Shown here: one piece after another, positions 9,901-36,134 of the stretch
How the letters are laid out: each line of letters opens with the position of its first letter
Numbering within the stretch: position 1 is the stretch's first letter
From: Rubrivivax sp.
GTDB lineage: Bacteria > Pseudomonadota > Gammaproteobacteria > Burkholderiales > Burkholderiaceae_C
DNA length: 36,134 nucleotides
NCBI GenBank assembly: GCA_026125665.1
Contig: JAHCKS010000049.1
Span: 1-36,134 of the forward strand
Reading direction: 5' to 3'
The notes under the pieces: model-generated
What the model was told of the DNA's origin: nothing
Databases searched by the model: none
Seen by the model: the letters and a program-made list of their open reading frames with translations, nothing else
Made by a program: the position numbers and the translations under genes

Positions 9901-10482
9901 ATGACATCTCGCCACCCTGTCAAGCGGGCCGCGTTCCTCGCGAGCGCATGCCTCGTCGCCTTCACGGCACCAGCCCAGCCCGACCCGCGGCCCGGCGCGC
10001 GCGACACCGCCGAGCTGCAACGGCAGTTCTGGCGCTGCGACCATGCGGCCACCCGGGCGCTGCTGGACCTCGAGACCGCGGCGCGCTGCAGCCGCGTCAC
10101 CGAGGCGTTGCGCCAGCGGCGCTTCGGCGACGACTTCCCCGCGTTCCTCGCCTGGTGGCGTGCGAACAAGGCGGCCGAGCATGCGGCACTCGACACGGGC
10201 GCGGCCGCCACGGCGGCAGCGCGGCCCGCCCCGGGGCCGGCGGCGCCGCCGGCCAGGCCGCTGGATGACGCGACGCCCGAGCAGCTGAAGGCGGCCTACC
10301 TGCACTGCGACCGGCTCGCGACCACCGAAGACTTCGACCCGGCGGCCGCGATGGCCTGCTCGATCGTCTACGAGGCGCTGAAGGCGCGCGTCTTCGGCGG
10401 CAGCACCGAGCGGGTCATCGCCTGGATGAAGCAGCAGCAGGCCACGCTCGCCGACCGCACTCGCCCGGGGCGGCCGCGCTAG
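9901..10482 (+). CDS. Exported protein with a duplicated Cys-containing unit, unknown function
   Basis: This 193-residue protein has a signal peptide (residues 1-25, KRAAFLASACLVAFTAPAQ) and a strong ribosome site (AAGGAG) before ATG 9901. It contains two copies of one unit, residues 44-90 and 134-180, alignable without gaps over 47 positions. Shared positions include the starting C-D, A-T, a second Cys exactly 17 residues after the first (Cys46/Cys63 and Cys136/Cys153), V-x-EAL, R-x-F-G and AW. The Cys pairs could form one disulfide per unit in the periplasm. An Ala/Pro linker joins the units. It follows the PhlG-like gene by 60 bp and may be cotranscribed with it. I do not recognise the family. 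Confidence 0.75.
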   Translation: MTSRHPVKRAAFLASACLVAFTAPAQPDPRPGARDTAELQRQFWRCDHAATRALLDLETAARCSRVTEALRQRRFGDDFPAFLAWWRANKAAEHAALDTGAAATAAARPAPGPAAPPARPLDDATPEQLKAAYLHCDRLATTEDFDPAAAMACSIVYEALKARVFGGSTERVIAWMKQQQATLADRTRPGRPR

Positions 10483-10527
10483 CTGGCGGCGCGTCGACGT
10501 CCGTCCGGGCCGCTGCGCGAATCCCGC

Positions 10528-11667
10528 TCAGCGCTGCGGCTCGACCAGCAGCTTCTCGCCCGTGGCGCGCGCGGCGAAGCGCTTGACCACCGCCGGGTCG
10601 AGCATCTGCGCGAGCGAGATCGTGCCGCTGTAGCGGCTGGCGAAGGTGGTCGTGAGCTCGGCCGCCACGCGCGCCTTCAGCGCCGACACGGCCGCCGGCC
10701 CGATGCGCTGCAGGAAGCCGAAGAGCAGCCAGCCGCCCAGGCTCCAGTGGAAGCCGAAGTTGCGCCGGACTTCGGTGGGCCCGGGGTCGAGCGTGCCGTA
10801 CAGGTACACCTGCTTCAGCGTCGAGGTGCCGTAGCGGCTGTACTCGGTGGCGCTGCGCAGCAGCGCGGCCTCCATGCCCGTGAGCAGCTGCGAGGCGAGC
10901 GTGCCGCCGCCCACGGCGTCGAAGGCGATGGTGGCGCCGGTGGCGGCGCAGGCATCGGCCAGCGCTTGCGCGAAGTCGGCCGCGCTGCTGTCGCACACGT
11001 GTTGCGCGCCCTGTGCACGCAGCAGCGCCGCCTGCCCGGGCTTGCGCACCACGTTGACGAGGCCGATGCCGTCGGCCAGGCACAAGCGGTTGAGCATCTG
11101 CCCGAGGTTGGAAGCGGCCGCGGTGTGGGTGAGCGCACGGTGCCCCTCGCGCTGCATCGTCTGCACCATGCCCAGCGCCGTGAGCGGGTTGACGAAACAC
11201 GAGGCACCGGCCGCCGCCGGCGTGCCATCGGGCAGCAGCAGGCCATCGGCGGCCTTCGCGGCGCGGTACTGCGCGTACATGCCGCCGGCCAGCACGGCCA
11301 CCGTGCGCCCGAGCAGCGCCTGCGCCGCGGGCGAGCCGCCGGCGGCCACGACGGTGCCCGCGCCCTCGTTGCCCACCGGCATCGCCTGGCCGACGCGGCC
11401 GGCCACGCCGGGCATCGCCGCCGGCGGCACCTGCGCCTCCAGCACGGTGCGCCCGCCCACCTCGGCGCTGCGCACGGTGCCGAGGTCGGCCGGGCCGAAG
11501 AGGTTGCCGATGTCGCTCGGGTTGACCGGTGTCGCCTCGACGCGGATGAGCACCTCGTCGGCCGCGGGCTGCGGCACCGGAACCGGCTCGAGCGTGATGC
11601 GGACGACGCCTTCGGGCGTGATGAGCGAGCGCAGCTGCAGGGCTTCCTTGGGGAGGGTGGTGGTCAT
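10528..11667 (-). CDS. Zinc-independent MDR-superfamily alcohol dehydrogenase/quinone oxidoreductase-like protein
   Basis: This protein of 379 residues has the GroES-like N-terminal fold of medium-chain dehydrogenases (ADEVLIRVEATPVNPSDIGN) and a nucleotide-binding half with ATGATIAFDAVGGGTLA. The catalytic and structural zinc ligands of classical alcohol dehydrogenases are absent, as in quinone oxidoreductases. The usual Rossmann glycine motif is replaced by a segment reading AAASNLGQML, also seen in some enoyl-reductase-like MDR proteins. The start at 11667 is the first ATG next to the conserved fold; the open frame upstream has no family character. A cytoplasmic NAD(P)H-dependent reduction is likely, on an unknown substrate. 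It is divergent from the VOC gene. Confidence 0.82.
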   Translation of the reverse strand: MTTTLPKEALQLRSLITPEGVVRITLEPVPVPQPAADEVLIRVEATPVNPSDIGNLFGPADLGTVRSAEVGGRTVLEAQVPPAAMPGVAGRVGQAMPVGNEGAGTVVAAGGSPAAQALLGRTVAVLAGGMYAQYRAAKAADGLLLPDGTPAAAGASCFVNPLTALGMVQTMQREGHRALTHTAAASNLGQMLNRLCLADGIGLVNVVRKPGQAALLRAQGAQHVCDSSAADFAQALADACAATGATIAFDAVGGGTLASQLLTGMEAALLRSATEYSRYGTSTLKQVYLYGTLDPGPTEVRRNFGFHWSLGGWLLFGFLQRIGPAAVSALKARVAAELTTTFASRYSGTISLAQMLDPAVVKRFAARATGEKLLVEPQR

Positions 11668-24273: not shown

Positions 24274-25104
24274 TCAGTCGTCGTCGGCCGCCCGATCCTC
24301 GCCTGCCTGCACCTCGCCTGCGGCAGCCTTCGGCCACAGCCCCTGCGGGTAGGCCCGCCACTGCCAGGCAGCGAAGCCCAGCACCGCGGCGAGCAGCAGC
24401 ACGGCGAGCCAGGCGCGGTTGCGCGGCACGAGGTCGGGGCCCGGGCCTTCGACGCGGCCGGTGAACATCACCGCGGCCTGGTTGCGGCGGCGCAGGAGGC
24501 TCAGCACGACGACCGCCGTGACGTGCACGACGACCACGGCGAGCATGGCGCTGCCGAGCGCCTCGTGCACTTCGGCCAGCGCTTCGCCGACGATGTCGCC
24601 GCCCCACTCCTGGTACGCGGCGTAGCCGCTCAGCGTGAGCGGCAGCGCCAGCGCCAGCAGCGTGGCGATGGCCGTTGCCATCCCCAGGTTCTGCCCCTGC
24701 CGCCAGGGCACGCCGGCCCGGCGGCGCTGCACGAGTGCCGTGCGCACCGCGCCGAGCCAGGCGCGCCCGGCGCCGAGCTTGCGCCACAGCAGCGCGAGCC
24801 GCGCCGGCCGCGGCCCGGCGAGCCCGTAGAGCACACGAAAGGCCAGCAGGCCGGCCATCGAGTAGCCGAGCGTCACGTGCAGCGCGCGCCAGGCCTCGCT
24901 GTCGCCGGTGATGTAGGCACCGGCGAAGGCGAGCGCGAAGAGCGCGTGGAACATGCGAACCGGGGCGTCGACGACGCGGCGCGTCGCGGTGGGCGCGGCG
25001 CTCGCGGCGCTCGTGGCGGTCGCGGCGCTTGTGGCCGTCCCGGCAGTCCCGGCAGTCGGGGCGCCGTGGCCGGCTGTGCCGAGGGTGGGTGCGGTGGTGG
25101 TCAT
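24274..25104 (-). CDS. Cytochrome b561-like membrane protein of the SHP/DHC operon
   Basis: This 276-residue protein has four to five hydrophobic helices. Histidines placed for two b hemes are His53 (VRMFHALFA), His76 (RALHVTLGY), His180 (AEVHEALG) and His194 (VVVHVTA), the pattern of di-heme b561 domains in bacterial cytochrome b subunits. An extra Ala/Thr/Gly-rich stretch of about 40 residues precedes the first helix, and a single helix near 227-246 closes the membrane part. It is the last gene of a three-gene operon with two periplasmic c-type cytochromes, so it probably passes electrons from the quinol pool to DHC and then SHP. The family is known from Rhodobacter sphaeroides and relatives. 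Confidence 0.84.
   Translation of the reverse strand: MTTTAPTLGTAGHGAPTAGTAGTATSAATATSAASAAPTATRRVVDAPVRMFHALFALAFAGAYITGDSEAWRALHVTLGYSMAGLLAFRVLYGLAGPRPARLALLWRKLGAGRAWLGAVRTALVQRRRAGVPWRQGQNLGMATAIATLLALALPLTLSGYAAYQEWGGDIVGEALAEVHEALGSAMLAVVVVHVTAVVVLSLLRRRNQAAVMFTGRVEGPGPDLVPRNRAWLAVLLLAAVLGFAAWQWRAYPQGLWPKAAAGEVQAGEDRAADDD
24994..25058 (-). repeat. Imperfect short tandem repeats coding the Ala/Thr-rich N-terminus
   Basis: Several degenerate copies of GCGGCGCTCGTGGCGGTC and CCCGGCAGT follow one another inside the start of the b561-like gene. They encode the low-complexity TAGTATSAATATSAAS region. Such tracts vary in copy number by slippage; the sequence alone does not show variation. 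Confidence 0.5.
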
Positions 25105-25134
25105 CGTGGGCTCGCGTTCGAGGTCAGGTGAAGC

Positions 25135-25668
25135 TCAGTCGTGCCAGGCGCGCCGTTGCCCCGGGCTCGCGCCTTCGGGCAGGCGCAGGCGGTCGTCGTC
25201 GAAGTCGCCCCGTTCGGCGCCGGCATGGCAGGCGGCGCAGTTGGCGGCGCTCTTCACCCCCGGCAGCCGCCACGTGGCGGGCTCGACGCGCCGGTGCTCG
25301 CGCAGGAACCAGGCCGAACGCGTGATGCGGTCTTCCGGCGGTGCCTCGCGCGCGCGTCGCGTGCTGCCGGCGTGGGCCAGCAGCCAGGCTTCGATGCGGC
25401 GGGCCAGCGCCTCGTCGATCGTGGCGTCGGTGCCGTAGTGCCGCTCGAGCCCGGCCATGACGCGCCGCGACGACTCGCGCGGCAGCAAGCCGGGCGGGAA
25501 GGCGACGTGGCACGAAGCGCACTCCTGGCGGACCTCCGCCGGCAGATCGGCGGGCATGCGTTCGCGCTCGCCGGCGCCGGCCGGGCCGAGGGCGAGCAGG
25601 CCCGCGGCAGCGGCCGCCGCCAGCACCAGGCCAGGTCTTCCTGCTCGAGCGAGGCGGCGCCGCGTCAT
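25135..25668 (-). CDS. Diheme cytochrome c (DHC family)
   Basis: This exported 177-residue protein has a signal peptide (1-33) and two c-heme sites, CASCH (50-54) in ECASCHVAFPPGLLPRESS and CAACH (144-148). The first block, with the Pro-rich PPGLLP after the heme site, is the DHC family signature known from Rhodobacter sphaeroides and methylotrophs. DHC is the electron donor to SHP in those organisms. Its ATG overlaps the SHP stop (ATGA, 4 nt), and the b561-like gene follows 30 bp later, matching the known shp-dhc-cyt b order. An open frame running far upstream covers the SHP gene in another frame and is not real. Confidence 0.9.
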   Translation of the reverse strand: MTRRRLARAGRPGLVLAAAAAAGLLALGPAGAGERERMPADLPAEVRQECASCHVAFPPGLLPRESSRRVMAGLERHYGTDATIDEALARRIEAWLLAHAGSTRRAREAPPEDRITRSAWFLREHRRVEPATWRLPGVKSAANCAACHAGAERGDFDDDRLRLPEGASPGQRRAWHD

Positions 25669-26087
25669 CGCGCAGCTCCGCGCAGCGTCAGCAGCCAGGC
25701 CAGCACGTCGGCCTTCTCGGCCGGCGAACACTCGCGCGCGAGCACGTCGTTGCAGTTGCGGCGCAGCCACTTGTCGACGCGGACCGGGTCGGTGAAGGCC
25801 TGGGGATTGGCCGCCGGTGCCAGCGGGTCGAGGCGCTTGCCGGTGCTCGCGTGTCTGCCCGTCGCCGTGGGCGGGTTGCCGTGGCACGAGGCGCACGACC
25901 ACTCGCCGCCATGCCGCGTGGTGAAGAACGACCGGCCACGCTCGGCGTCGCCCGGGGCACCGGCCTGGCGGCTGAAGCGGTCGAGCTGTTGCGCGGGCGA
26001 GGTTCCGGCGGCCAGTACCGGGTGGGCCGCGGCCGCGGCGGCGAGCAGGGCGATGCGCATCGGGCGCAGCAGGGGAGGGGCGGTCAT
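25665..26087 (-). CDS. SHP-type monoheme cytochrome c (DUF1924 family)
   Basis: This protein of 140 residues has a signal peptide ending near residue 27 (HPVLAAG) and one heme site CASCH (65-69). Near the end it has RRNCNDVLARECSPAEKADV, with Asn111/Asn113 and two cysteines (112, 120). In Rhodobacter sphaeroides SHP an asparagine is the sixth heme ligand and a nearby disulfide shapes the site. That Asn leaves on reduction so that O2 or NO can bind. The same arrangement seems to be present here. Its role could be oxygen or NO handling in the periplasm, with electrons from DHC. GAGGA precedes ATG 26087. It is first in the operon and divergent from the PepSY/two-component genes. Confidence 0.88.
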   Translation of the reverse strand: MTAPPLLRPMRIALLAAAAAAHPVLAAGTSPAQQLDRFSRQAGAPGDAERGRSFFTTRHGGEWSCASCHGNPPTATGRHASTGKRLDPLAPAANPQAFTDPVRVDKWLRRNCNDVLARECSPAEKADVLAWLLTLRGAAR

Positions 26088-26795: not shown

Positions 26796-27458
26796 ATGAG
26801 GATCCTGCTCGTCGAGGACGACCCGACGCTGCGCGCCCAGCTGCGCGCCGCGCTCGCCGAGGCCGGCTACGCCGTCGACGAAGCCGCCGACGGGCGCGAG
26901 GCGCTGCACCTGGGCGAAACCGAACCCTTCGACGCGGTGGTGCTCGATCTGGGGCTCCCCGTGCTCGACGGGCTCTCGGTGCTGCGCCGCTGGCGCGAGG
27001 CCGGCCGCGCGATGCCGGTGCTGATCCTCACCGCGCGCGACACGTGGCACGAGAAGGTGGTGGGCATCGACGCCGGCGGCGACGACTACCTGGCCAAGCC
27101 GTTCCACATCGAAGAGCTGCTGGCGCGCGTGCGCGCGCTGATCCGGCGCGCGCAGGGGCTGGCTTCGCCGATGCTGGCCTGCGGCGCGGTGGCGCTGGAC
27201 ACGCGCAGCGGCCGCGTCACGGTGCACGGCCGGCCGGTGTCGCTGACGGCGCACGAGTTCCGGTTGCTCGCCTACCTGATGCACCGGCCCGGCACCGTGG
27301 TCTCGCGCACCGAGCTCACCGAGCACCTCTACGCGCAGGACCACGACCGCGACTCCAACACCATCGAGGTGTTCGTCGCGCGGCTGCGGCGCAAGCTGCC
27401 GCCCGCGGCCATCGAAACCGTGCGCGGCCTCGGCTACCGCCTGGTGGCCGTGCCGTGA
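26796..27458 (+). CDS. OmpR-family response regulator (QseB/PmrA-like)
   Basis: This 220-residue protein has a receiver domain (LLVEDDP, phospho-Asp51 in VVLDLGLP, LTARD, Lys in YLAKPF) and a winged-helix DNA-binding domain (about 128-218: LTAHEFRLLAYLMHRPGTVV, then IEVFVARLRRKL and TVRGLGYRL). The ATG at 26796 begins exactly at the receiver. It overlaps the kinase gene by 4 nt, so the two should be a cognate pair. The direct repeats at 26151-26190 have the form bound by this subgroup, so likely targets are this operon and the divergent SHP/DHC/b561 operon. Confidence 0.92.
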   Translation: MRILLVEDDPTLRAQLRAALAEAGYAVDEAADGREALHLGETEPFDAVVLDLGLPVLDGLSVLRRWREAGRAMPVLILTARDTWHEKVVGIDAGGDDYLAKPFHIEELLARVRALIRRAQGLASPMLACGAVALDTRSGRVTVHGRPVSLTAHEFRLLAYLMHRPGTVVSRTELTEHLYAQDHDRDSNTIEVFVARLRRKLPPAAIETVRGLGYRLVAVP

Positions 27459-28975
27459 ACGGGGCCGTGCTGCCCGGGCGAGCGGCATGGCGCCGTTCGC
27501 TGCGCTGGCGGCTGCTGGCGGCCACGCTCGCGGCGCTGCTGCTCGCGCTGGTGCTGGCGGGCCTCGTGCTGGCCGGGCTCTTTCGCGGGCACGTGCTGCG
27601 CCAGTCCGTGGCCCTGCTCACCACGCAGCTTGACCAGGTGACGGCGCGCCTGGAGTTCAACGCCGACGGCCGGCCCGGGCTCGATGCAGACTCGCTCAGC
27701 GACCCGCGCTGGTCGCGGCCGCAGTCGGGGCTGTACTGGCAGGTCGACCGCGCAGGCGACGACGGGCATGCCGCGCCCGAGCGCGGCGTGCTGCGATCGC
27801 GCTCGTTGTGGGACGCCGCGCTGCACCTGCCGGCCGACGCGCTGGCCGACGGCGAGGTGCACGTGCACGAGCTCGCCGGGCCGCGCGGCGAGCCGTTGCT
27901 GGTGGTCGAGCGCACGGTACGGCGTGGCGCCGAGGGTGCCGGCCGATGGCGGCTCGCCGTGGCCGCCGACCTCGGAGAGACCGAGGCGGCCGTCCGCCGC
28001 TTCAACGGCGTGCTCGCCCTGTCGCTGGCGAGCCTGCTGGTGCTGCTCGCGGCGGCGGCGTGGGCGCAGGTGTCGGTGGGGCTCGCGCCGCTGCGCGCCT
28101 TGCAGCGCTCGCTGGCCGACGTGCGCGACGGCCGTGCGCCGCGCCTGCACGAAGGCGTGCCGGCCGAGGTGCAGCCGCTCGTCGACGACTTCAACACCGT
28201 GCTCGAGCGCAACGCCGAGCTGGTGCGGCGCGCGCGCACCCAGGCCGGCGACCTGGCGCACGCGCTGAAGACGCCGCTGGCCGTGCTGCAGCAGGCCGCC
28301 GCCACGGCTGCACGCGCCGAGGACGGCGCGGCGGAGCTCGCACGGCTCGTGCACGAGCAGGCCGGCCTGGCGCAGCGGCAGGTCGAGCGGCATCTCGCGC
28401 GCGCGCGTGCCGCCGCCGCCGCGCAGGGGCTGCCCGGCGTGCGCACGGCGGTGGCGCCGGTGCTCGCCGCCCTCGTGCGCGTGATGTGCAAGGTGCACGC
28501 CGCTCGCGCGCTCGCCATCGACGTGTCGGTGGTGGACGAGCGCTGCACCTTCGCCGGCGAGGCCGAGGACCTGCACGAGATCGTCGGCAACGTGCTCGAC
28601 AACGCCTGCCGCTGGGCACGACACCGGGTACGCATCGTGGCCGGCCCGGAAGCCGGCTCCGTGCCGGCGCGCATCCGGATCGACATCGCCGACGACGGCC
28701 CGGGCATCGCCGAAGACCGGCGCGAGGCCGCGCTGGCGCGCGGGACGCGCCTGGACGAGTCGATGCCCGGCAGTGGCCTCGGGCTGTCGATCGCGCGCGA
28801 TCTCGTCGAGCTGTATGGCGGCACGCTCGTGCTGCTCGGCGAGCCGCCGGCCGGCCTCTCGGTGCGCATCCGGCTGCCGGCCGCGGCCGCGGGCTTCAGC
28901 TTCGCTTCAGGCTTGTCACCGGATCCGTCGGCCGCGCCGGCGCCGCCCGGTGCCGGGCGGCCGCCGCCCGCCTGA
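27455..28975 (+). CDS. Sensor histidine kinase (QseC/PmrB/PhoQ-type)
   Basis: This 506-residue membrane kinase has one helix at about 20-43, a periplasmic domain of roughly 140 residues, a second helix (about 186-207) and a HAMP-like linker. Its HisKA site is DLAHALKTPLAVLQQ with His269. The HATPase has an N-box (IVGNVLDNACRWA), DDGPGIA and GSGLGLSIA. The GTG at 27455 overlaps the regulator's TGA. The periplasmic part is similar in size to kinases that sense cations or oxidative signals and includes several His (His105, His124, His136, His138). A metal or redox signal is therefore possible but not shown. Confidence 0.9.
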   Translation: MNGAVLPGRAAWRRSLRWRLLAATLAALLLALVLAGLVLAGLFRGHVLRQSVALLTTQLDQVTARLEFNADGRPGLDADSLSDPRWSRPQSGLYWQVDRAGDDGHAAPERGVLRSRSLWDAALHLPADALADGEVHVHELAGPRGEPLLVVERTVRRGAEGAGRWRLAVAADLGETEAAVRRFNGVLALSLASLLVLLAAAAWAQVSVGLAPLRALQRSLADVRDGRAPRLHEGVPAEVQPLVDDFNTVLERNAELVRRARTQAGDLAHALKTPLAVLQQAAATAARAEDGAAELARLVHEQAGLAQRQVERHLARARAAAAAQGLPGVRTAVAPVLAALVRVMCKVHAARALAIDVSVVDERCTFAGEAEDLHEIVGNVLDNACRWARHRVRIVAGPEAGSVPARIRIDIADDGPGIAEDRREAALARGTRLDESMPGSGLGLSIARDLVELYGGTLVLLGEPPAGLSVRIRLPAAAAGFSFASGLSPDPSAAPAPPGAGRPPPA

Positions 28976-29134: not shown

Positions 29135-30010
29135 ATGCCCGACACCGCGAACGCCGCCGACCGCGAGGCGCTGCTGCTGCGCACCGCCGAGGAGGTGCTG
29201 CTGCCGCTGGCGCGCCTGTGCGTGGCGCAGGGGCTGCACTTCGCCAAGGCCGGCGAGCTGTTCAAGCGGGCCTACGTGCGCGCGGCTCGCGAGCGCCGGT
29301 CGGCCACCGGCGAACGATCCGCGCGCGACGTCAGCCAGGTGGCCACCGCCACGGGCCTCAGCCGCCGCGACGTCGCACGCATCGGCGACGCGCCGGCGCC
29401 GCGCGCGCTGCAGCGCACGACGCCGGCCACGCAGCTGCTGACACGCTGGCTCGCCGACCGCTCGCTGCGCCATCGCAACGGCCGCATGCGCAAGCTGCCG
29501 CGGCAGGGGCCGCCGCCGAGCTTCGAGGCGATGGCGCAGGCGGTGACGCGCCACGTGCATCCGCGCAGCCTGCTCGACGAGATGCTGCGCCTGGGCTACG
29601 TCAAGCTGGTCGACGACGGCGCCAGCGTCGTGCCGCTGCCGGTGCGCGTGGTGCCCGAGGCCGACGAGGCGCGCATGTTCGGGTTCCTCGCGGCGAACGT
29701 CGGCGACCACCTGTCGGCCGCGGTGGCGAACGTGCTGCACCGCGACCGCCGCCACCTCGAGCAGGCGATCTTCAGCAACACCCTCTCGGGCACGGCCGTC
29801 TCGGCCGCGAAGGCGCTGGTGGCGGCGCAGTGGACGCACCTGCTCGGCGCGCTGGTGCCGGCCCTCGAGGGCCTGATCGAGGAGGACCACGCGGCCGGTC
29901 GCACCGCCGACCACCGCCTGCGCGTGGGCCTCTATGCCTATCACGAGCCGCTGCCGGCACCACCCGCGGCGGCCATGGAGCCTTCCGATGGCAACGATGC
30001 AAGAACCTGA
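29135..30010 (+). CDS. DUF6502-like protein, putative regulator of the multiheme operon
   Basis: This soluble 291-residue protein without signal peptide matches my recollection of the DUF6502 family, with LHFAKAGELFKRAYVRAA (34-51). A helix-turn-helix-like segment SARDVSQVATATGLSRRDVA is at about 62-81. The C-terminal half is helical and charged. It is the first gene of a chain of overlapping genes; its end overlaps the DUF5666-type gene by 23 nt. The 21-bp palindrome at 29103-29123, directly upstream, would be a natural binding site. A DNA-binding role is inference. I know of no experimental work on the family. Confidence 0.7.
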   Translation: MPDTANAADREALLLRTAEEVLLPLARLCVAQGLHFAKAGELFKRAYVRAARERRSATGERSARDVSQVATATGLSRRDVARIGDAPAPRALQRTTPATQLLTRWLADRSLRHRNGRMRKLPRQGPPPSFEAMAQAVTRHVHPRSLLDEMLRLGYVKLVDDGASVVPLPVRVVPEADEARMFGFLAANVGDHLSAAVANVLHRDRRHLEQAIFSNTLSGTAVSAAKALVAAQWTHLLGALVPALEGLIEEDHAAGRTADHRLRVGLYAYHEPLPAPPAAAMEPSDGNDART

Positions 30011-31259
30011 TTCGCGCGACGGCGGGTACGACCGCCGCTCCACGCTGGCCGCGCGCGCGGCCTGGGCCACCGCCGCCGTGTACGCGCTCGTCGCCCTCGT
30101 GGCGATCTGGGCGCTGTCGGGCTGCGGCGGCGGGGTCGACTCCGGCGGCACCGGCGCCTCGACGGCGAGCGCGACGTTGGGCCCGGTGAGCGGCTTCGGC
30201 TCCATCGTCGTCGCCGGCATCCACCACGACGAGACCGGCGCGCAGATCGTCGACGACGACGGCCGGCCGCTCGGCGCCGAAGCGCTGAAGCTCGGCACGA
30301 TGACGAACATCGAGGGCTCCGCCGTCGTCACGAGCGGTGCGCGGCGCGAGTCGACCGCCGCGCGGGTGCGCGTGATCGAGCAGGTGGTCGGCCCGGTCGA
30401 CAGCGTCGATGCCGCGGCGGCGTCGCTCGTCGTGCTCGGCCAGCGCGTCGTGATCACGCCGACGACGGTGCTCGACGCGGCGCTCGCCGGCGGGCTGGCC
30501 GTGTTGCGCCCGGGCGAGGTGCTGGCCGTGCACGGCCAGCTCGACGTGGCGGCCGGCCGCATCGTCGGCACGCGCGTCGAGCCGCGGCCGCTGGCCACGG
30601 CCTACGTGCTGCGCGCGCCGGTCGTCTCGTACGCGCGTTCGGCCCGGCGCATCGTGCTCGGCGGCGTCGAGATCGACCTCGCCGGCCTCGCCGAGGCCGA
30701 GCTGCCGGCTTCGCTGCCGCCGGGCACGCTGGCGCGCGCGAAGCTCGCGACGCAGCCGGTGGGTGCCGGCTCCACCGCCCCCGTGTGGCGCGCGACGGCC
30801 CTGCGCGCCGCCACGCCGATGCTCGGCGACCGCGAGCAGGTCGAGATCGAGGGCCGCATCACGGCCTTCACGTCGCCGCAATCCTTCAGCGTCGACGGCG
30901 TGCCGGTGGACGCGAGCGGCGCGAGCTTCGAGGGCGGGACGGCCGGGCTCGCGGTCGGCGCCCGTGTCGAGGTCGAGGGGCGCGCCGTCGGCGGCGTGCT
31001 CGTCGCGCGCGAGGTCGAGCTGGAGTCGGACGACGGTTCCGACGGTCGCCGGTTCGAGGTGGAAGGCCGCATCAGCGCACTCGACACGACGGCACTGACC
31101 TTCGTCGTGCGCAGCGTCACCGTCAGCTATGCCGGTACCCCGCGCTTCGAGGGCGGCACGGCCGCCGACCTGGCGCTCGAGCGCAAGGTGGCGGTGAAGG
31201 GCACGCTGTCGGCCGACCGCACGCGCCTGCAGGCCGAGAGCATCCACGTCGAGCGCTGA
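29988..31259 (+). CDS. DUF5666-type repeat lipoprotein
   Basis: This protein of 423 residues has a cytoplasmic N-tail, a hydrophobic stretch and a clean lipobox ALSGC with Cys46, followed by a Gly/Ser/Thr linker. The mature part is a series of small beta modules of about 60-75 residues with the DUF5666 pattern: EIEGRITAFTSPQSFSVDGV, then ASFEGGTAGLAVGARVEVEG, repeated as EVEGRISALDTTALTFVVRS with PRFEGG. At least two clear and two or three weaker copies are seen. These look like OB-like beta-barrels. The start at 29988 has GGAG upstream; ATG 29997 is an alternative. It is likely anchored to the outer membrane and may be a scaffold for the multiheme cytochromes encoded downstream. Confidence 0.82.
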   Translation: MATMQEPDSRDGGYDRRSTLAARAAWATAAVYALVALVAIWALSGCGGGVDSGGTGASTASATLGPVSGFGSIVVAGIHHDETGAQIVDDDGRPLGAEALKLGTMTNIEGSAVVTSGARRESTAARVRVIEQVVGPVDSVDAAAASLVVLGQRVVITPTTVLDAALAGGLAVLRPGEVLAVHGQLDVAAGRIVGTRVEPRPLATAYVLRAPVVSYARSARRIVLGGVEIDLAGLAEAELPASLPPGTLARAKLATQPVGAGSTAPVWRATALRAATPMLGDREQVEIEGRITAFTSPQSFSVDGVPVDASGASFEGGTAGLAVGARVEVEGRAVGGVLVAREVELESDDGSDGRRFEVEGRISALDTTALTFVVRSVTVSYAGTPRFEGGTAADLALERKVAVKGTLSADRTRLQAESIHVER

Positions 31260-31261
31260 AC

Positions 31262-32239
31262 ATGGGCCACATGGCGGAACCGTTTGCGCCGACGGTGCTG
31301 GACGCGGCGCTGCACGGCCTGGCGCGGGCCGCGCCGGCAGACCCTGCGCCCGCCGCCATGGCGGCCCCGGAGCCGCCGCGCGCGAAGGTGCCGGCCGCGC
31401 GGCAGTGGCTGCGCGACCTGCTGCTCGTCGCCGTGCTCGGCGGCCTCGTCGCGCTGGCCTGGCAGGTCGGCGAGCGCGGCTGGGTGCGGCCGCAGGAAGA
31501 CCTCGGCTACTGGATCGGCGTGGCCGGCGGCTCGATGATGCTGGCGCTTTTCGTCTACCCGCTGCGCAAGTACGCCGGCTGGATGCGCCGCCTGGGCAAG
31601 GTCAAGGGGTGGTTCTGGTTCCACCTCGTGATGGGCGTGGCCGGGCCGTGGCTGGTGCTGGTGCACGCGGGCTTCCGCACCGGCTCGCTGAACGCCGCGG
31701 TGGCGCTGTACAGCATGGCCATCGTCGTCGTCAGCGGGGTCGTCGGCCGTTTCCTGTTCGTGCGGCTGAACAGCCGGCTGGAGGAGGCGCAGGTCGCGCT
31801 GCAGGCCGTGCGCCGGCGCGCACGGCTCGACGACGAAGGCGGCGAAGGCTCGGCCCTGCACTACGCGCCCGGGGTCGAGCAGCGCCTGCGCGACTTCGAG
31901 GCGCGCGAGCTCGAAGGCGCGCCGCGGCGCCTGCGCGACCTGCGGCAGGTGGTGCTGCTGCCCATGCAGCGGCGAGTGCTGCTGTGGCGCTGCCTGCGCG
32001 AGCTGCGCCGTCCACTGGCGGCGCGCGCGGCCGCTGGCCGCTGGGGCCGCGACGAGCTGGCGCGGCGGCGCCGGCGCGTGCACCGCCTCGTCGACGATCA
32101 CCTGGAGGCGGTGGTGCGCGTGGCGCGGCAGCAGGCCTTCGCGCGCGTGTTCGCGCTGTGGCACGTGGCGCACCTGCCGTTCATCGTCCTGCTCGTGATC
32201 AGCGCCGTGGTGCACGTGGTCGCGGTGCATGCCTACTGA
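31262..32239 (+). CDS. Membrane protein with cytochrome b-like histidines
   Basis: This 325-residue protein has hydrophobic helices at about 52-68, 82-100, 118-136, 146-167 and 297-321. Histidines lie at both ends of helix 3 (His121 and His135 in FHLVMGVAGPWLVLVHAGF) and in the last helix (His301, His304, His318, His323). They are suitably spaced to bind two b hemes across the membrane. A long charged cytoplasmic segment (about 168-295), rich in Arg and probably helical, splits the helices. It sits just before the multiheme cytochrome genes (TGATG overlap with the next). A quinol-oxidising membrane entry point is the simplest reading. Similar helices occur in the membrane parts of some ferredoxin- or cytochrome-linked reductases. 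Confidence 0.72.
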   Translation: MGHMAEPFAPTVLDAALHGLARAAPADPAPAAMAAPEPPRAKVPAARQWLRDLLLVAVLGGLVALAWQVGERGWVRPQEDLGYWIGVAGGSMMLALFVYPLRKYAGWMRRLGKVKGWFWFHLVMGVAGPWLVLVHAGFRTGSLNAAVALYSMAIVVVSGVVGRFLFVRLNSRLEEAQVALQAVRRRARLDDEGGEGSALHYAPGVEQRLRDFEARELEGAPRRLRDLRQVVLLPMQRRVLLWRCLRELRRPLAARAAAGRWGRDELARRRRRVHRLVDDHLEAVVRVARQQAFARVFALWHVAHLPFIVLLVISAVVHVVAVHAY

Positions 32240-34197
32240 TGTGGCGGTGCGGATGGCCGGGCGTGATGGCCATGGCTTCATGCGGCCGTGCCGCGTTGCA
32301 GCGGGTGCTGCCGGCCGCACGCCGGCCGGCACGGCGGCCCGCGGCGTGGATCGCCGGCCTGCTCGTGTGGGCCGGCTGCGGCACGGGCTTCGCGCAGAGC
32401 CTGGAGTCGGTGCTGCGCCCGGGCGACGTCATCGCCGGCCATGCGAAGTGGGAGGACGACTGCAGCCAGTGCCACGTGCGCTTCGACCGCGCCGCGCAGG
32501 ACCGCCTGTGCATGGCCTGCCACAAGGACGTGGGGCAGGACATGCGTGAGCGCACCGGCTACCACGGCCGCCTGCGCGCGGGCCCCGCCTGCCGCAGCTG
32601 CCACACCGACCACCGCGGCCGCGACGCGCGCATCGTGCTGCTGGACAAGGCCACCTTCGACCACGCCGCCACCGACTACCCGCTGCGCGCGCGCCACGCG
32701 CGCGTCGAGTGCGCCTCGTGCCACGTGCCCGGGCGCAGGTACCGCGAGGCCCCGCACGACTGCGTGGGCTGCCACCGCCAGGACGACGCCCACAAGGGCG
32801 GCCTCGGCACCCAGTGCGCCGACTGCCACGGCGAAGCGGGCTGGAAGCCGGCGAAGTTCGACCACGGCAGGACGCGCTTCGCGCTCGCCGGCGCGCACGC
32901 CACGGCGCGCTGCGAGTCGTGCCACCGCGACGGCCGCTACAAGGACACGCCGCGCGCCTGCCTCTCGTGCCACCGCGAGGACGATCGCCGCGCGCACGGC
33001 GGGCGCTTCGGCGAGCGCTGCGAGTCGTGCCACGACGTGAAGGCCTGGAAGCCGGCGCGCTTCAACCACGACGTGGCGACGCGCTTCGCGCTGCGCGGTG
33101 CTCACCGCAACGCCACATGCGCCGACTGCCACGGCGCGGCGCCGGCCGGCAGCGCCGCCGGAGCCTTCGCGCTCGGCCGCGACAAGCCCGGCAGCGCCTG
33201 CATCGACTGCCACCGCAAGGACGACCGGCACGAAGGGCGCCTCGGCACCGATTGCGCCTCGTGCCACACCGAGGGCAGCTGGAAGGAGCGCGGCCGCTTC
33301 GACCACGACAAGACGGCCTTCGCGCTGCGCGGCAGGCATCGCGAGGCACGCTGCGAGTCGTGCCACAGGACGCCCGACCACAGGCAGGCGCCGAAGGACT
33401 GCATCGGCTGCCACCGCGCCGACGACCGGCACGGCGGCACGCTCGGCACCGACTGCGCCGCCTGCCACGGCGAGCGCGAGTGGAAGAGCGCGCCGAGGTT
33501 CGACCACGCGAAGACCCGCTTCCCGCTGCGCCACGCGCATGCGGTGCCGGGCCTGGCCTGCAGGAGCTGCCACGCCGATGCGAAGCGCTTCCGCGGCACG
33601 GCACTGGAGTGCGTGGCCTGCCATCGCAAGGACGACAGGCACGAGGGCCAGCTCGGCACGCGCTGCGAGAGCTGCCACGACGAGCGCCGCTGGAAGGTGG
33701 CGGCGTTCGACCACGCGCGCACGCGTTTCGTGCTCACCGGCGCTCACGTGCGGGCCGCCTGCAAGGACTGCCACGCGACGCCGCGCTACCGTGACGCGCC
33801 GCGCGAGTGCGTCGGCTGCCACCGCAAGGACGACCGGCACGAGGCGCGTTTCGGCACCGCCTGCGAGAGCTGCCACAACACGCGGCATTGGGGTCTCGGC
33901 AGCTTCGACCATGCACGCACGAGCTTCGTGCTCGACGGCGCGCATGCGCCGCTCGCCTGCGAGCGCTGCCACGTGCAGCCGGCGCCGCAGGGGCGCGCCG
34001 CGGCGGCGCTCGGCGCGGCGTGCGTGTCGTGCCACCGGCGCGACGACGTGCACGACGGCGCCTTCGGCAGTGCCTGCGACCGCTGCCACACGACCGGCCG
34101 CTGGAAGCCCGTGCGCCCGCGCGCCGGCCGGTTCGAGATGCCCGGCGAGAGCCGGGGAGCAGCCCGGGAAGAGCCTCGGGAAAGGAGGCGACCATGA
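32239..34197 (+). CDS. Periplasmic multiheme cytochrome c with 24 CxxCH motifs in seven triheme modules
   Basis: This 652-residue protein has an N-terminal signal (helix about 36-50, AQS near 52-54). I count 24 CxxCH sites. Three form an N-terminal unit (first at 75-79, second at 91-95). The other 21 fall into seven tandem modules of roughly 65-70 residues, each with the order F-D/N-H, T-x-F-x-L, H, CxxCH, then about 10 residues, CxxCH-R-x-D-D, G-x-x-x-x-CxxCH, and W-K. The conserved extra histidines in FDH, (G)AH and DDRH are likely distal heme ligands, giving bis-His hemes. The last 25 residues are charged and Gly/Pro-rich with no heme. ATG 32239 overlaps the preceding stop, and the following gene overlaps by ATGA. 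Confidence 0.9.
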   Translation: MWRCGWPGVMAMASCGRAALQRVLPAARRPARRPAAWIAGLLVWAGCGTGFAQSLESVLRPGDVIAGHAKWEDDCSQCHVRFDRAAQDRLCMACHKDVGQDMRERTGYHGRLRAGPACRSCHTDHRGRDARIVLLDKATFDHAATDYPLRARHARVECASCHVPGRRYREAPHDCVGCHRQDDAHKGGLGTQCADCHGEAGWKPAKFDHGRTRFALAGAHATARCESCHRDGRYKDTPRACLSCHREDDRRAHGGRFGERCESCHDVKAWKPARFNHDVATRFALRGAHRNATCADCHGAAPAGSAAGAFALGRDKPGSACIDCHRKDDRHEGRLGTDCASCHTEGSWKERGRFDHDKTAFALRGRHREARCESCHRTPDHRQAPKDCIGCHRADDRHGGTLGTDCAACHGEREWKSAPRFDHAKTRFPLRHAHAVPGLACRSCHADAKRFRGTALECVACHRKDDRHEGQLGTRCESCHDERRWKVAAFDHARTRFVLTGAHVRAACKDCHATPRYRDAPRECVGCHRKDDRHEARFGTACESCHNTRHWGLGSFDHARTSFVLDGAHAPLACERCHVQPAPQGRAAAALGAACVSCHRRDDVHDGAFGSACDRCHTTGRWKPVRPRAGRFEMPGESRGAAREEPRERRRP

Positions 34198-35564
34198 AGC
34201 ACTGGCCGACCCGGCGCGGTGCGCCGCTGCTTGCCGCCTTGTTCGTGGTGCTGCTCGGTCTTCTCGTGATCCCGGGCCCGGGCTCGTCGCCGCGGGCGCA
34301 GACCGCCGGCCCGGCGTCGGCGCAGGCCACCGACTTCGACCACCTGCGCACTGGCTTCGCGCTCACCGACCGCCACGCGCAGGCGCGCTGCGAGAGCTGC
34401 CACCAGAACGGCATCTTCCAGGGCACGCCGCGCGACTGCGCCTCGTGCCACCGCACCGGCATGCGGCTGGCGCGCGGCAACGTCGTGATGCCGGCCAAGC
34501 ACGTGCCGACCCAGCAGGCGTGCGACGCCTGCCACAACACGCGCACGTTCACCGGCGCGCGCTTCAGCCACGCGGGTGTCGTCCCCGGCAGCTGCACGAC
34601 CTGCCACAACGGCTCCATCGCCCCCGGCAAGCCGGCCACGCACCTGCCCACCACCGCCTCGTGCGAGAGCTGCCACCGCTCCACGAGCACCTGGCTGGCG
34701 GTCAGCGGCGGCCACACCGCCGCCACCGCAGTGGGCACCGGCACCTGCGACACGTGCCACAACGGCATCGGCGCGCGCGGCAAGCACGCGGCACACATCC
34801 CGGTGCCGGCCGGCGCCGCCCGCTGCGACAGCTGCCACCGCTCGCAGGCGAGCTTCACCGTCGCCGTGCGCATGGACCACGCGGTGGTGGCCACCGCCGC
34901 CTGCGCGAGCTGCCACAACGGCACCTCGGCCACCGGCAAGCACGCCACGCACGTGACCACCACCGCCACCTGCGACACCTGCCACCGTTCGACGGCGGTG
35001 TGGAGCAGCGTCACCGGCGCGCACACGGCGGCCAACGCCGTGGGCACGGGCACCTGCGACACCTGCCACAACGGCACCTCGGCCAGGGGCAAACATGCCG
35101 GCCACGTGCCGGTGCCCGCCGGCGCCGCCCGGTGCGACGGCTGCCACCGCTCGCAGGCGGCGTGGACGACCGCCGTGACGATGAACCACGCCGTCGTCGC
35201 GACGGCCGAGTGCAAGACCTGCCACAGCGGCCAATACGTCGGCGAAGGCACGACCGGCGCGCTGGCCAAGCCGGCCAACCACGTCCCCGAGGCGCAGCTG
35301 CTCGGCGGCTCCCTGATGGACTGCAAGTCGTGCCACAGCAGCACCACCAGCTGGTCGACGCAACGCGTGAACCACAACAACAGCCAGGGCAACGGGGCCG
35401 GCTGGTGCAAGGGCTGCCACGACAGCGCGACGCGCTACGCCGGCTCGATGGAGCGCAAGGCACTGCGCCACTACGAGCGCGCGCCGGCGGTCGTCACCGA
35501 CTGCTCGATGTCCGGTTGCCACCGGCCGCTGGGCACGCGCGGCACGCCCTACAGCAAATGGTGA
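34194..35564 (+). CDS. Second multiheme cytochrome c with 14 CxxCH and one CX4CH motif
   Basis: This protein of 456 residues has a signal anchor at about 10-28 and an Ala/Pro linker. Its first heme unit begins like a module of the preceding protein (FDHLRTGFAL, then CESCH). After that it changes to a different repeat: CxxCHNG, then GKHA-H, then C-D-x-CHRS, a tryptophan or phenylalanine, H-A/T and A-CxxCH. Fourteen canonical sites are counted. At the C-terminus CSMSGCH is a CX4CH site that could bind a fifteenth heme. The ribosome site AAAGGAGG lies inside the preceding gene, whose stop overlaps this start (ATGA). It should work next to the 24-heme protein as an electron carrier. Periplasmic or outer-face location is undecided. 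Confidence 0.88.
   Translation: MKHWPTRRGAPLLAALFVVLLGLLVIPGPGSSPRAQTAGPASAQATDFDHLRTGFALTDRHAQARCESCHQNGIFQGTPRDCASCHRTGMRLARGNVVMPAKHVPTQQACDACHNTRTFTGARFSHAGVVPGSCTTCHNGSIAPGKPATHLPTTASCESCHRSTSTWLAVSGGHTAATAVGTGTCDTCHNGIGARGKHAAHIPVPAGAARCDSCHRSQASFTVAVRMDHAVVATAACASCHNGTSATGKHATHVTTTATCDTCHRSTAVWSSVTGAHTAANAVGTGTCDTCHNGTSARGKHAGHVPVPAGAARCDGCHRSQAAWTTAVTMNHAVVATAECKTCHSGQYVGEGTTGALAKPANHVPEAQLLGGSLMDCKSCHSSTTSWSTQRVNHNNSQGNGAGWCKGCHDSATRYAGSMERKALRHYERAPAVVTDCSMSGCHRPLGTRGTPYSKW
34731..35210 (+). repeat. 309-bp tandem repeat inside the second multiheme gene
   Basis: The block starting GTGGGCACCGGCACCTGCGA at 34731 recurs from 35040 with the same order of heme sites. Long identical stretches are kept, such as the part coding VPAGAARCD-x-CHRSQA. 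The period is 309 bp (103 residues). The second copy is incomplete and ends near 35210. It points to recent duplication within the gene. Confidence 0.7.
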
Positions 35565-36134
35565 GGTTCCCCTCCTTGTCGTCCCTGTCCCTGCCCTTGT
35601 CCTTCATCTTCCGCCGGAGCCGCCTCGCGCCGCTGCGCGCGATCCTCGCCGCCGCCGCCCTCGTCGCCAGCGCCGCCGCCCACGGGCAGGCCATCGACCA
35701 TGTCGAGTCGCGCCGCGACGGGCCGAACACGGTGATGCAGGTGCACTTCACCGAGCAGGTGCAGCTGCAGCGCAGCGTCGCCGCCGACCGCGCGGCGCTG
35801 CTGTCGATCCACTACGCGCTCGTCTCGACCACCAACGCGCAGCTGCGCTCGTCGCAGGCGCTGCGCCTCGGCGCGCGGCAGGGCCTGCCCGAGCTGGAGC
35901 TGAGCGACGACCCGGAACCCGACGTGCGCGGCCGCCGGCTCGTCGTGCGCGCGAGCGGCGTGTCGCGCCTGAGCGTGCGCGCCGGCGCCGGCGGGCGCCT
36001 GCTGGAGATCGTGCTGCACGACTGGCCGGGCGCGACGGCGGCCGCGCCTGTGCCGGTGCCGCCAGCCTCTGCGCCGGCCCCCGTGCCGGCCTCGGCGGCC
36101 CCGACGGTTCCCCCGCCACCCGCACCACCCACGC
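35558..36134 (+). CDS. Exported protein of the multiheme operon, 3' end beyond the window
   Basis: ATG 35558 overlaps the last seven bases of the second multiheme gene, and the frame stays open to the window end (192 codons). The product starts with an N-terminal segment rich in Ser, Leu and Pro, then a signal helix (LAPLRAILAAAALVASAAA) with a likely cut near HGQA (about residue 43). The following 115 residues are beta-rich (VESRRDGPNTVMQVHFTEQV, then RRLVVRASGVSRLSVRAG and LLEIVLHDWPG). They vaguely recall AMIN-type or secretin-associated beta domains. A Pro/Ala-rich linker follows and reaches the edge. Such a lead-in often precedes repeats or an outer-membrane barrel, so it could be the outer-membrane partner. 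The family is not recognised. Confidence 0.7.
   Translation, partial: MVRFPSLSSLSLPLSFIFRRSRLAPLRAILAAAALVASAAAHGQAIDHVESRRDGPNTVMQVHFTEQVQLQRSVAADRAALLSIHYALVSTTNAQLRSSQALRLGARQGLPELELSDDPEPDVRGRRLVVRASGVSRLSVRAGAGGRLLEIVLHDWPGATAAAPVPVPPASAPAPVPASAAPTVPPPPAPPT

Follow-up and report, generated by a model that had tools for sequence, protein, structure and literature searches.

A PCC3 gene cluster in Rubrivivax sp. and FSO, a flavoprotein candidate for its cytoplasmic end

A stretch of DNA of 36,134 nucleotides from Rubrivivax sp., called the window hereafter, was analysed; it is the whole contig C212 of genome G000 (268 contigs, 88.6% complete). At its end, the window carries a gene cluster of the PCC3 type, the putative porin-cytochrome c complex 3 named by He et al. 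2017 (PMC5566968). The locus is a further example of this named cluster, and its added value lies in a companion gene, located after the porin gene on a second contig, which encodes a 434-aa 4Fe-4S/FAD/NAD(P) oxidoreductase called FSO here. The PCC3 cluster probably encodes a trans-envelope conduit, made of an inner membrane protein (IMP), a 24-heme wire and a second multiheme cytochrome c (MHC) with a porin, with FSO as probable cytoplasmic partner. PCC3 includes some of the most heme-rich proteins reported, and FSO is a concrete candidate for the missing cytoplasmic end of the complex; without this partner, the locus would be an ordinary additional case.

The original prediction described six genes overlapping or lying 2 bp apart, which the coordinates bear out over positions 29135-36134, all on the + strand. 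In gene order, the junctions are a 23-bp overlap, a 2-bp gap, then overlaps of 1, 4 and 7 bp. A DUF6502 protein (291 aa, 29135-30010) and a DUF5666 lipoprotein (423 aa, 29988-31259) precede the PCC3 IMP (325 aa, 31262-32239), the periplasmic-type MHC with 24 CxxCH motifs (32239-34197), the extracellular-type MHC with 14 CxxCH motifs and one CX4CH (34194-35564) and the porin gene, cut by the contig end after its N-terminal 192 aa (35558-36134). The prediction had recognised no named pathway in this combination, which was wrong: the order matches that of Sideroxydans Slit_1446-1449, namely IMP, periplasmic MHC, extracellular MHC and porin (PMC12016527), and IMP carries the PCC3 signature of two WX3HX13H and one SGXXG (PMC5566968). 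The same order has thus been described under another name, though not functionally characterised in the work cited. The two MHC of Slit PCC3 contain 24 and 28 hemes (PMC8788666), those of PCC3 copy 1 in Sideroxydans sp. CL21 contain 24 and 14 (PMC12442390), and Leptothrix genomes also carry PCC3 (PMC13386937). In print, the extracellular wire ranges from 10 to 85 hemes, the 85 sites being found in one protein (PMC5566968).

The likeness to PCC3 therefore covers the IMP motifs, a periplasmic MHC of 21 to 27 hemes, a second MHC of variable heme number, the porin and the order of all four. The window differs by the DUF6502-DUF5666 genes joined to the front of the operon and by FSO after the porin, unmentioned in the cited parts of the PCC3 literature. 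MtrCAB and MtoAB share with the window a porin together with periplasmic and extracellular MHC. However, the window cytochromes reach 27 and 43.2 bits against a cut-off of 192.2 for the MtrA/DmsE family TIGR03508, so that an MtrCAB/MtoAB assignment was rejected, as the prediction had anticipated. PCC4 and the "other MHC" clusters with five-helix IMPs have similar IMP motifs and also include a redox gene, of the Fe-S type in PCC4 subgroup II (He et al. 2017). PCC4 has three periplasmic MHC and no extracellular one, whereas the window has two MHC, the second being of the PCC3 extracellular type. Elsewhere, the same genome encodes a decaheme protein that does belong to the MtrA/MtoA (DmsE) family (G000:C195:38426-39274, 273.5 bits against TIGR03508).

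IMP shows the features of PCC3 membership: a length of about 300 aa, five transmembrane (TM) helices seen both by hydropathy and in an AlphaFold2 (AF2) model, WX3HX13H on TM3 and TM5 (W117/H121/H135 and W300/H304/H318) and SGXXG on TM4 (S158-G159..G162). The contigs were scanned with IMP, and the best 80 of 402 confirmed relatives were taken as named loci. Both WX3HX13H and the SGXXG are kept in 14/14 aligned IMPs and in all 78 full-length IMP frames of these loci. The loops TM2-3 and TM4-5 are basic (mean K+R of 5.6 in 18 positions and of 22.9 in 133), whereas the means for the opposite-side stretches are 1.4, 0.6 and 0. By the positive-inside rule, H121 and H304 would thus lie near the cytoplasmic face and H135 and H318 near the periplasmic face. 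In NADPH oxidases, ferric reductases and cytochrome b subunits, conserved histidines of the helices are found towards both membrane faces, and in the NADPH oxidase/ferric reductase family two HX13H helices hold two b hemes across the membrane. IMP probably binds two b hemes, one towards each face, an arrangement of histidines also argued for by PMC5566968. The predicted label of a b-type-like membrane protein is supported in this sense, by motif anatomy. The HX13H spacing, checked in IMP, and the proposed cytoplasmic NAD(P)H/FAD partner recall the NADPH oxidase/ferric reductase family (FRD, PF01794). In contrast to this family, IMP has no PF01794 match, its proposed partner FSO is a separate chain with 4Fe-4S sites, nearest to YpdA and thioredoxin reductases, and its acceptor would be a multiheme protein. 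The AF2 model, built from 14 sequences, has a pLDDT of 82.6. Its comparison by VIA-align returned helical bundles, with chemoreceptor sensor domains on top and cytochrome b561 at rank 16 with a low root mean square deviation, a result too weak for naming a fold. A plasmid search with IMP gave zero matches. One named locus, L117, encodes a full IMP (10001-10918) on a stretch of 20.9 kb whose three forward frames lack any CxxCH, as a stand-alone or moved IMP.

The predicted counts of heme motifs, 24 CxxCH in one cytochrome and 14 CxxCH plus one CX4CH in the other for a total of 38-39, proved exact on recount. Shuffled controls (2000 for each protein) contained on average 0.32 and 0.15 CxxCH motifs, respectively, with maxima of 3 and 2. 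Both proteins fall in class III or c7-type cytochrome families of Pfam, and their phmmer matches in the PDB are weak, the best being NrfB and MtrC/MtrF. Outside the motifs, the 24-heme MHC has 28 histidines and the 14-heme MHC has 20 (one of them inside CX4CH), enough in each case to ligate every heme. The heme densities are one per 27.2 aa in the 24-heme MHC and one per 32.6 aa in the 14-heme MHC, the latter inside the range of 22-39 of PCC3 extracellular MHC. The CX4CH of the second MHC, at residue 437, is a putative heme site. The true start of the 24-heme gene may be 32305 instead of 32239. The second MHC contains repeats at a spacing of 309 nt (103 aa). A collapse of these repeats during assembly was considered as the origin of the count of 14 and is not supported, since two 222-nt repeat copies are only 78% alike. 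The second MHC has 22 motifs in the close relative L055 and 14+7 motifs in two frames in L056, so that the true number of hemes in the living strain may be higher than 14.

The prediction had proposed outer-membrane partners and had suggested looking for a porin beyond position 36134. The remainder of the porin gene was indeed found on contig C84 of the same genome: a search of the genome with the porin of a relative matched C84:23-1801, at the very start of the contig, with 62% identity over query residues 296-875. Neither the cut sixth gene of the window nor IMP has any Pfam match above cut-off. The C84 part ends in F, and a barrel is suggested from sequence alone. Eight porin homologues examined are 704-875 aa long, and their C-termini resemble outer-membrane barrels by eye. 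TPR-like stretches, mostly under Pfam cut-offs, occur in all six homologues scanned and SPOR-like ones in two. The whole series DUF6502-DUF5666-IMP-24-heme MHC-second MHC-porin is carried by one contig in both L055, a Burkholderiales metagenome-assembled genome (MAG) with an IMP 76% identical, and L056, a Rubrivivax MAG with an IMP 74% identical, in which the second MHC is split into two frames. On these single contigs, FSO follows the porin, as it does on C84 (1831-3135). From this gene order, we infer that C212 adjoins C84.

FSO was searched in three samples of genomes. In the family sample (200 genomes), FSO was detected in 14/14 PCC3 genomes and in 1/186 others. Here strong IMP matches were found in 14 genomes (E <= 2.5e-63, the next best per-genome value being 6.7e-11; 7 of 21 IMP genomes were dropped as weak) and FSO in 15, with an FSO threshold of E <= 1e-60 fixed beforehand. 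In the class sample (274 genomes), a strong IMP was present in 34 genomes, and FSO in 33 of these against 2 of the 240 others, corresponding to 33 genomes with both, one with IMP only, two with FSO only and 238 with neither (35 strong FSO in total). The class thresholds of E <= 1e-50 for IMP and E <= 1e-70 for FSO were picked after viewing gaps in the values, from 6.5e-51 to 5.1e-17 and from 1.6e-71 to 8.7e-47, respectively. They drop as weak 10 of 44 IMP genomes and 13 of 48 FSO genomes, the weaker FSO matches being mainly to the flavin part of 780-880-aa frames. In the class searches, scoring was limited to 8 (IMP) and 6 (FSO) first-look candidates per genome. In the phylum sample (299 genomes), FSO was found in 4/4 IMP genomes, and the only other match, in G337, is a partial one (34%) in a 780-aa frame. 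The samples overlap: G000 is in all three and the phylum genomes G091 and G285 are already in the family and class samples, which leaves G605, outside the class, as the sole new genome among the four phylum carriers. Fisher P values were 1e-20 and 5e-39; the genomes being related, these are not true probabilities.

The class genomes in which one partner is lacking were considered individually. G389, with an IMP and no FSO match, has a 115-aa FSO-like frame adjoining IMP. Among the two FSO-only genomes, G376 (72% complete) has a porin near FSO, and in G297 FSO is in two pieces. IMP and FSO lie at most 2 kb apart in 24/34 class genomes; in 19/34 their spacing is 269-483 bp, and the two genes are divergent in all 19. 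The copy numbers were also compared. Two separate IMPs occur in three class genomes (G232, G235, G300), and each of these has two FSOs as well; the pair of IMP matches in G461 comes from a single gene in pieces. In the family sample, G048 has two IMPs and two FSOs, and G173 two IMPs and one FSO.

FSO is built of an N-terminal hydrophobic helix, basic residues, a 4Fe-4S dicluster domain (PF13237) and a pyridine-nucleotide/FAD domain (PF13738). Since basic residues follow the helix, the body of the protein is probably cytoplasmic, and FSO is predicted from its family to use NAD(P)H. In an alignment of 58 rows (57 distinct sequences of at least 400 aa and the reference), three cysteines of each 4Fe-4S cluster are invariant. 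The second ligand position is Ser in 35 rows, Cys in 21 and Thr in 2 for cluster 1, and His in 58/58 for cluster 2. Among solved structures, the flavin part is closest to YpdA, thioredoxin reductases and ferredoxin-NADP reductases. An identification of FSO as YpdA itself was rejected, the TIGR04018 score being 159.6 bits against a cut-off of 339.9. We found no tie of an FSO-like protein to PCC3 by literature searches or in the parts of PMC5566968 and PMC10734462 covered, which leave out the supplements and figures of He et al., where an earlier mention is possible. In Table 1 of PMC10734462, a cluster (360) named "4Fe-4S ferredoxin iron-sulfur binding domain protein" occurs in 41/87 genomes of iron-oxidising bacteria and the periplasmic PCC3 subunit in 42/87; cluster 360 may be FSO.

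Distant IMP relatives of the class sample (L182-L184, E from 5.1e-17 to 1.0e-13) abut, at a distance of 4 to 52 bp, a 789-810-aa flavoprotein with an N-terminal domain that shares 30-33% identity with that of FSO; a 10-heme protein also adjoins. The one flavoprotein scanned, that of L183, has 4Fe-4S and CRP-like parts as well. Two divergent IMP families thus adjoin related flavoproteins. In L053 and L054 too, a distant IMP lies beside a 10-heme protein. The L183 copy of this protein matches the FHA domain, and a "Forkhead-associated protein" cluster with 10 motifs appears in Table 1 of PMC10734462. Next to FSO or a remnant of it, a protein of about 650-780 aa, with Sel1-like repeats by recognition, was observed in L186, L187, L189 and L190. 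PCC3 or FSO genes adjoin genes resembling the cytochrome c maturation (ccm) cluster, named by recognition, in L038, L049, L050, L185 and L188.

Conservation of the gene order, which the prediction had proposed to check, was examined in the named loci. Some of these are family-sample genomes (for instance L060 = G193, L062 = G173, L065 = G199), so that counts over the 80 loci and over the 200 genomes are not independent. The order IMP, 24-heme MHC, MHC, porin is kept in most relatives examined. Among 75 loci with at least 2 kb downstream of IMP, the MHC that comes first carries 24 motifs in 69 loci, 27 in two and 21 in one; it is split (9+15) in L062, and L110 and L117 have no downstream MHC. 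The second frame with at least 5 motifs, in the 29 loci where it is clear of the contig edge, has 11 to 53 motifs, some of these frames being split. MHC frames are split in L056, L061, L062 and L107, and the 15 counted in L062 belongs to its first MHC, its second having 49. In L045, outside these named loci, the second MHC reaches 70 motifs in a complete frame. In L103 (Piscinibacter defluvii SH-1, a cultured carrier), a single locus unites the DUF6502-DUF5666 pair, IMP, MHC of 24 and 34 motifs, the porin and FSO. The porin is downstream in 26 of the 34 loci with at least 9 kb downstream. For the other 8, it is upstream in L085, L104 and L125, the second MHC fills the flank in L075 and L127, and it was not seen in L105, L111 and L117. 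Outside the family, the arrangements are IMP-24-24-porin in L185, IMP-21-23-porin in L186 and IMP-21-porin in L189, with no second MHC between. Four loci (L085, L102, L104, L125) are rearranged as second MHC, porin, lipoprotein, 761-772-aa protein, IMP and 24-heme MHC; in L104, the lipoprotein has a DUF3443 match, and the large protein a weak one to BNR repeats. L105 (JAPZAO010000098.1), filed as a Candidatus Methanoperedens MAG, has a burkholderial-type IMP and 24-heme gene, and this contig is probably mis-binned.

In the proposed conduit, the five-helix IMP with its two b hemes would move electrons across the inner membrane, the 24-heme MHC would act as a wire spanning the periplasm, and the 14-heme MHC, in or outside the large barrel, would exchange electrons with an extracellular partner. 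FSO, presumably docked to IMP, would be the cytoplasmic redox partner linking the diheme protein to NAD(P)H. Electrons would pass from NAD(P)H through FAD and 4Fe-4S to the inner b heme, the outer b heme, the 24-heme wire, the second MHC with porin and the outside, or in reverse. The route predicted at the outset, with quinol oxidation in the inner membrane, a periplasmic heme wire and outer-membrane partners, stands as regards the order of the conduit, which the anatomy and the relatives support. Quinol oxidation is one option only; the close association of FSO with PCC3 across genomes points to an NAD(P)H link of IMP, instead or as well. Pushed further, PCC3 might be a "split NADPH oxidase" of five components tied to NAD(P)H, where the exchange between FSO and IMP feeds or drains both wires and bypasses quinones, and the His replacing a cluster cysteine would tune the step between NAD(P)H and IMP. 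We advance this version tentatively, as slightly less likely than not. If true, the NAD(P)H link would allow reductant to be disposed of or taken up through PCC3 independently of the quinone pool and would alter models of its part in iron cycling and electrode respiration.

Several observations weigh against the conduit with FSO as its partner. In G019, the family genome mentioned above as having FSO but lacking PCC3, putative ccm genes adjoin FSO, and neither IMP nor a porin match was found. The link is looser in the named, mostly burkholderial loci, where FSO is found in 26/80, and in 14 of the 28 spanning at least 20 kb, and in some genomes FSO and IMP are on different contigs (for instance G199, 6 contigs). 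Pfam gave no match over cut-off for IMP, PF01794 is absent even at E <= 1, and a Foldseek search of its AF2 model against the PDB returned nothing at E <= 0.001. The literature on PCC3 since 2017, in the parts cited, gives no proven function, donor, acceptor or direction. In S. lithotrophicus ES-1, both PCC3 clusters are lower on Fe(II) (PMC8788666), which argues against a role in Fe(II) oxidation in the conditions of that study. In the ES-1 proteome table, the values for Slit_1448, the extracellular cytochrome, are 0 throughout (PMC12016527). In CL21 cells able to oxidise iron, by contrast, IMP of PCC3 copy 2 is up (PMC12442390).

According to the published model, IMP exchanges electrons with the quinone pool, as in an MtrCAB-like system with a cytochrome-b quinol dehydrogenase or as an inlet in reverse, and FSO is off the main route. 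This proposal of He et al. 2017 was made from the HX13H pairs (PMC5566968). It also agrees with a NapC/NirT tetraheme gene of the quinol-dehydrogenase type (PF03264), which in L056 only DUF6502 and DUF5666 separate from IMP, a like gene being found in L057. However, it does not account for FSO accompanying IMP almost one-to-one, and we regard it as possible while leaning against it. FSO could also serve the maturation of the heme-rich PCC3 cytochromes, as a reductant for heme or thiols, rather than deliver electrons to the wire. The resemblance of its flavin domain to YpdA and thioredoxin reductases, and its position among ccm-like genes in L185 and L188, would fit such a role. We nevertheless consider it unlikely, in view of the short divergent spacing between FSO and IMP in the class genomes and of the second IMP family, L182-L184, which abuts a flavoprotein as well. 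Least probable, in our opinion, is a conduit that stores charge or handles stress, as an electron capacitor or periplasmic redox buffer, instead of serving extracellular respiration. The ES-1 expression that does not track Fe(II) (PMC8788666) and the wide variation in heme number of the second MHC speak for it, whereas the porin gene is retained with the cytochromes in most loci, downstream or upstream. The conduit with FSO as cytoplasmic partner accordingly remains our preferred reading.

The labels of the first two genes of the operon, predicted as DUF6502-like and DUF5666, were confirmed by Pfam, with 46.9 bits for PF20112 against a cut-off of 27, and 100.8 bits for PF18914, in a lipoprotein with three DUF5666 stretches. 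The six-gene layout of the prediction thus holds, but its two first members do not qualify as core parts of the conduit. The pair is present in 13/80 named loci: 12 of the 70 with at least 4 kb upstream, and L064. Its distance to IMP is within 2.6 kb in 12/12 measured cases, 8 divergent from IMP and 4 co-directional, and only in the window and in L055, L056 and L057 does it nearly touch the gene for IMP. DUF6502 occurs in 77/200 family genomes, that is in 11 of the 14 PCC3 genomes and 66 of the 186 others, and DUF5666 in 74/200 (71 over cut-off). Being frequent outside PCC3 genomes, the pair has an independent life, and it is an optional accessory neighbour of PCC3. A functional part in the conduit, as regulator and lipoprotein, would agree with the overlapping or 2-bp-spaced co-directional genes of the window, with the like order in L055-L057 and with the proximity to IMP; we judge it rather unlikely, as only 11 of the 77 genomes with DUF6502 have PCC3 and three of the 14 PCC3 genomes lack DUF6502. 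That the DUF6502 protein is a regulator is a guess. Its AF2 model is of middling confidence (pLDDT 73.8), and the fold search listed several DNA-binding proteins, every one at E above 0.1 and thus without significant match. In a literature search, DUF5666 turned up in four papers and DUF6502 in none. A diheme cytochrome gene and the NapC/NirT-type tetraheme gene (PF03264 tested in L056) lie directly before DUF6502-DUF5666-IMP in L056 (4112-5358) and L057 (3624-4870); both are absent at the same place in the window and L055.

Directly upstream of the operon, the window encodes a response regulator and a histidine kinase (26796-28975, + strand), named by recognition. This two-component pair accompanies PCC3 in L055 and L056, both close relatives, too and might be a regulator of PCC3. 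Divergent from it, on the - strand at 24274-26087, are genes for a cytochrome b561 (PF01292), a diheme DHC (PF09626) and a DUF1924 cytochrome (PF09086). By likeness, L055 has a similar block in the neighbourhood of PCC3, and so does L056 as far as its contig extends.

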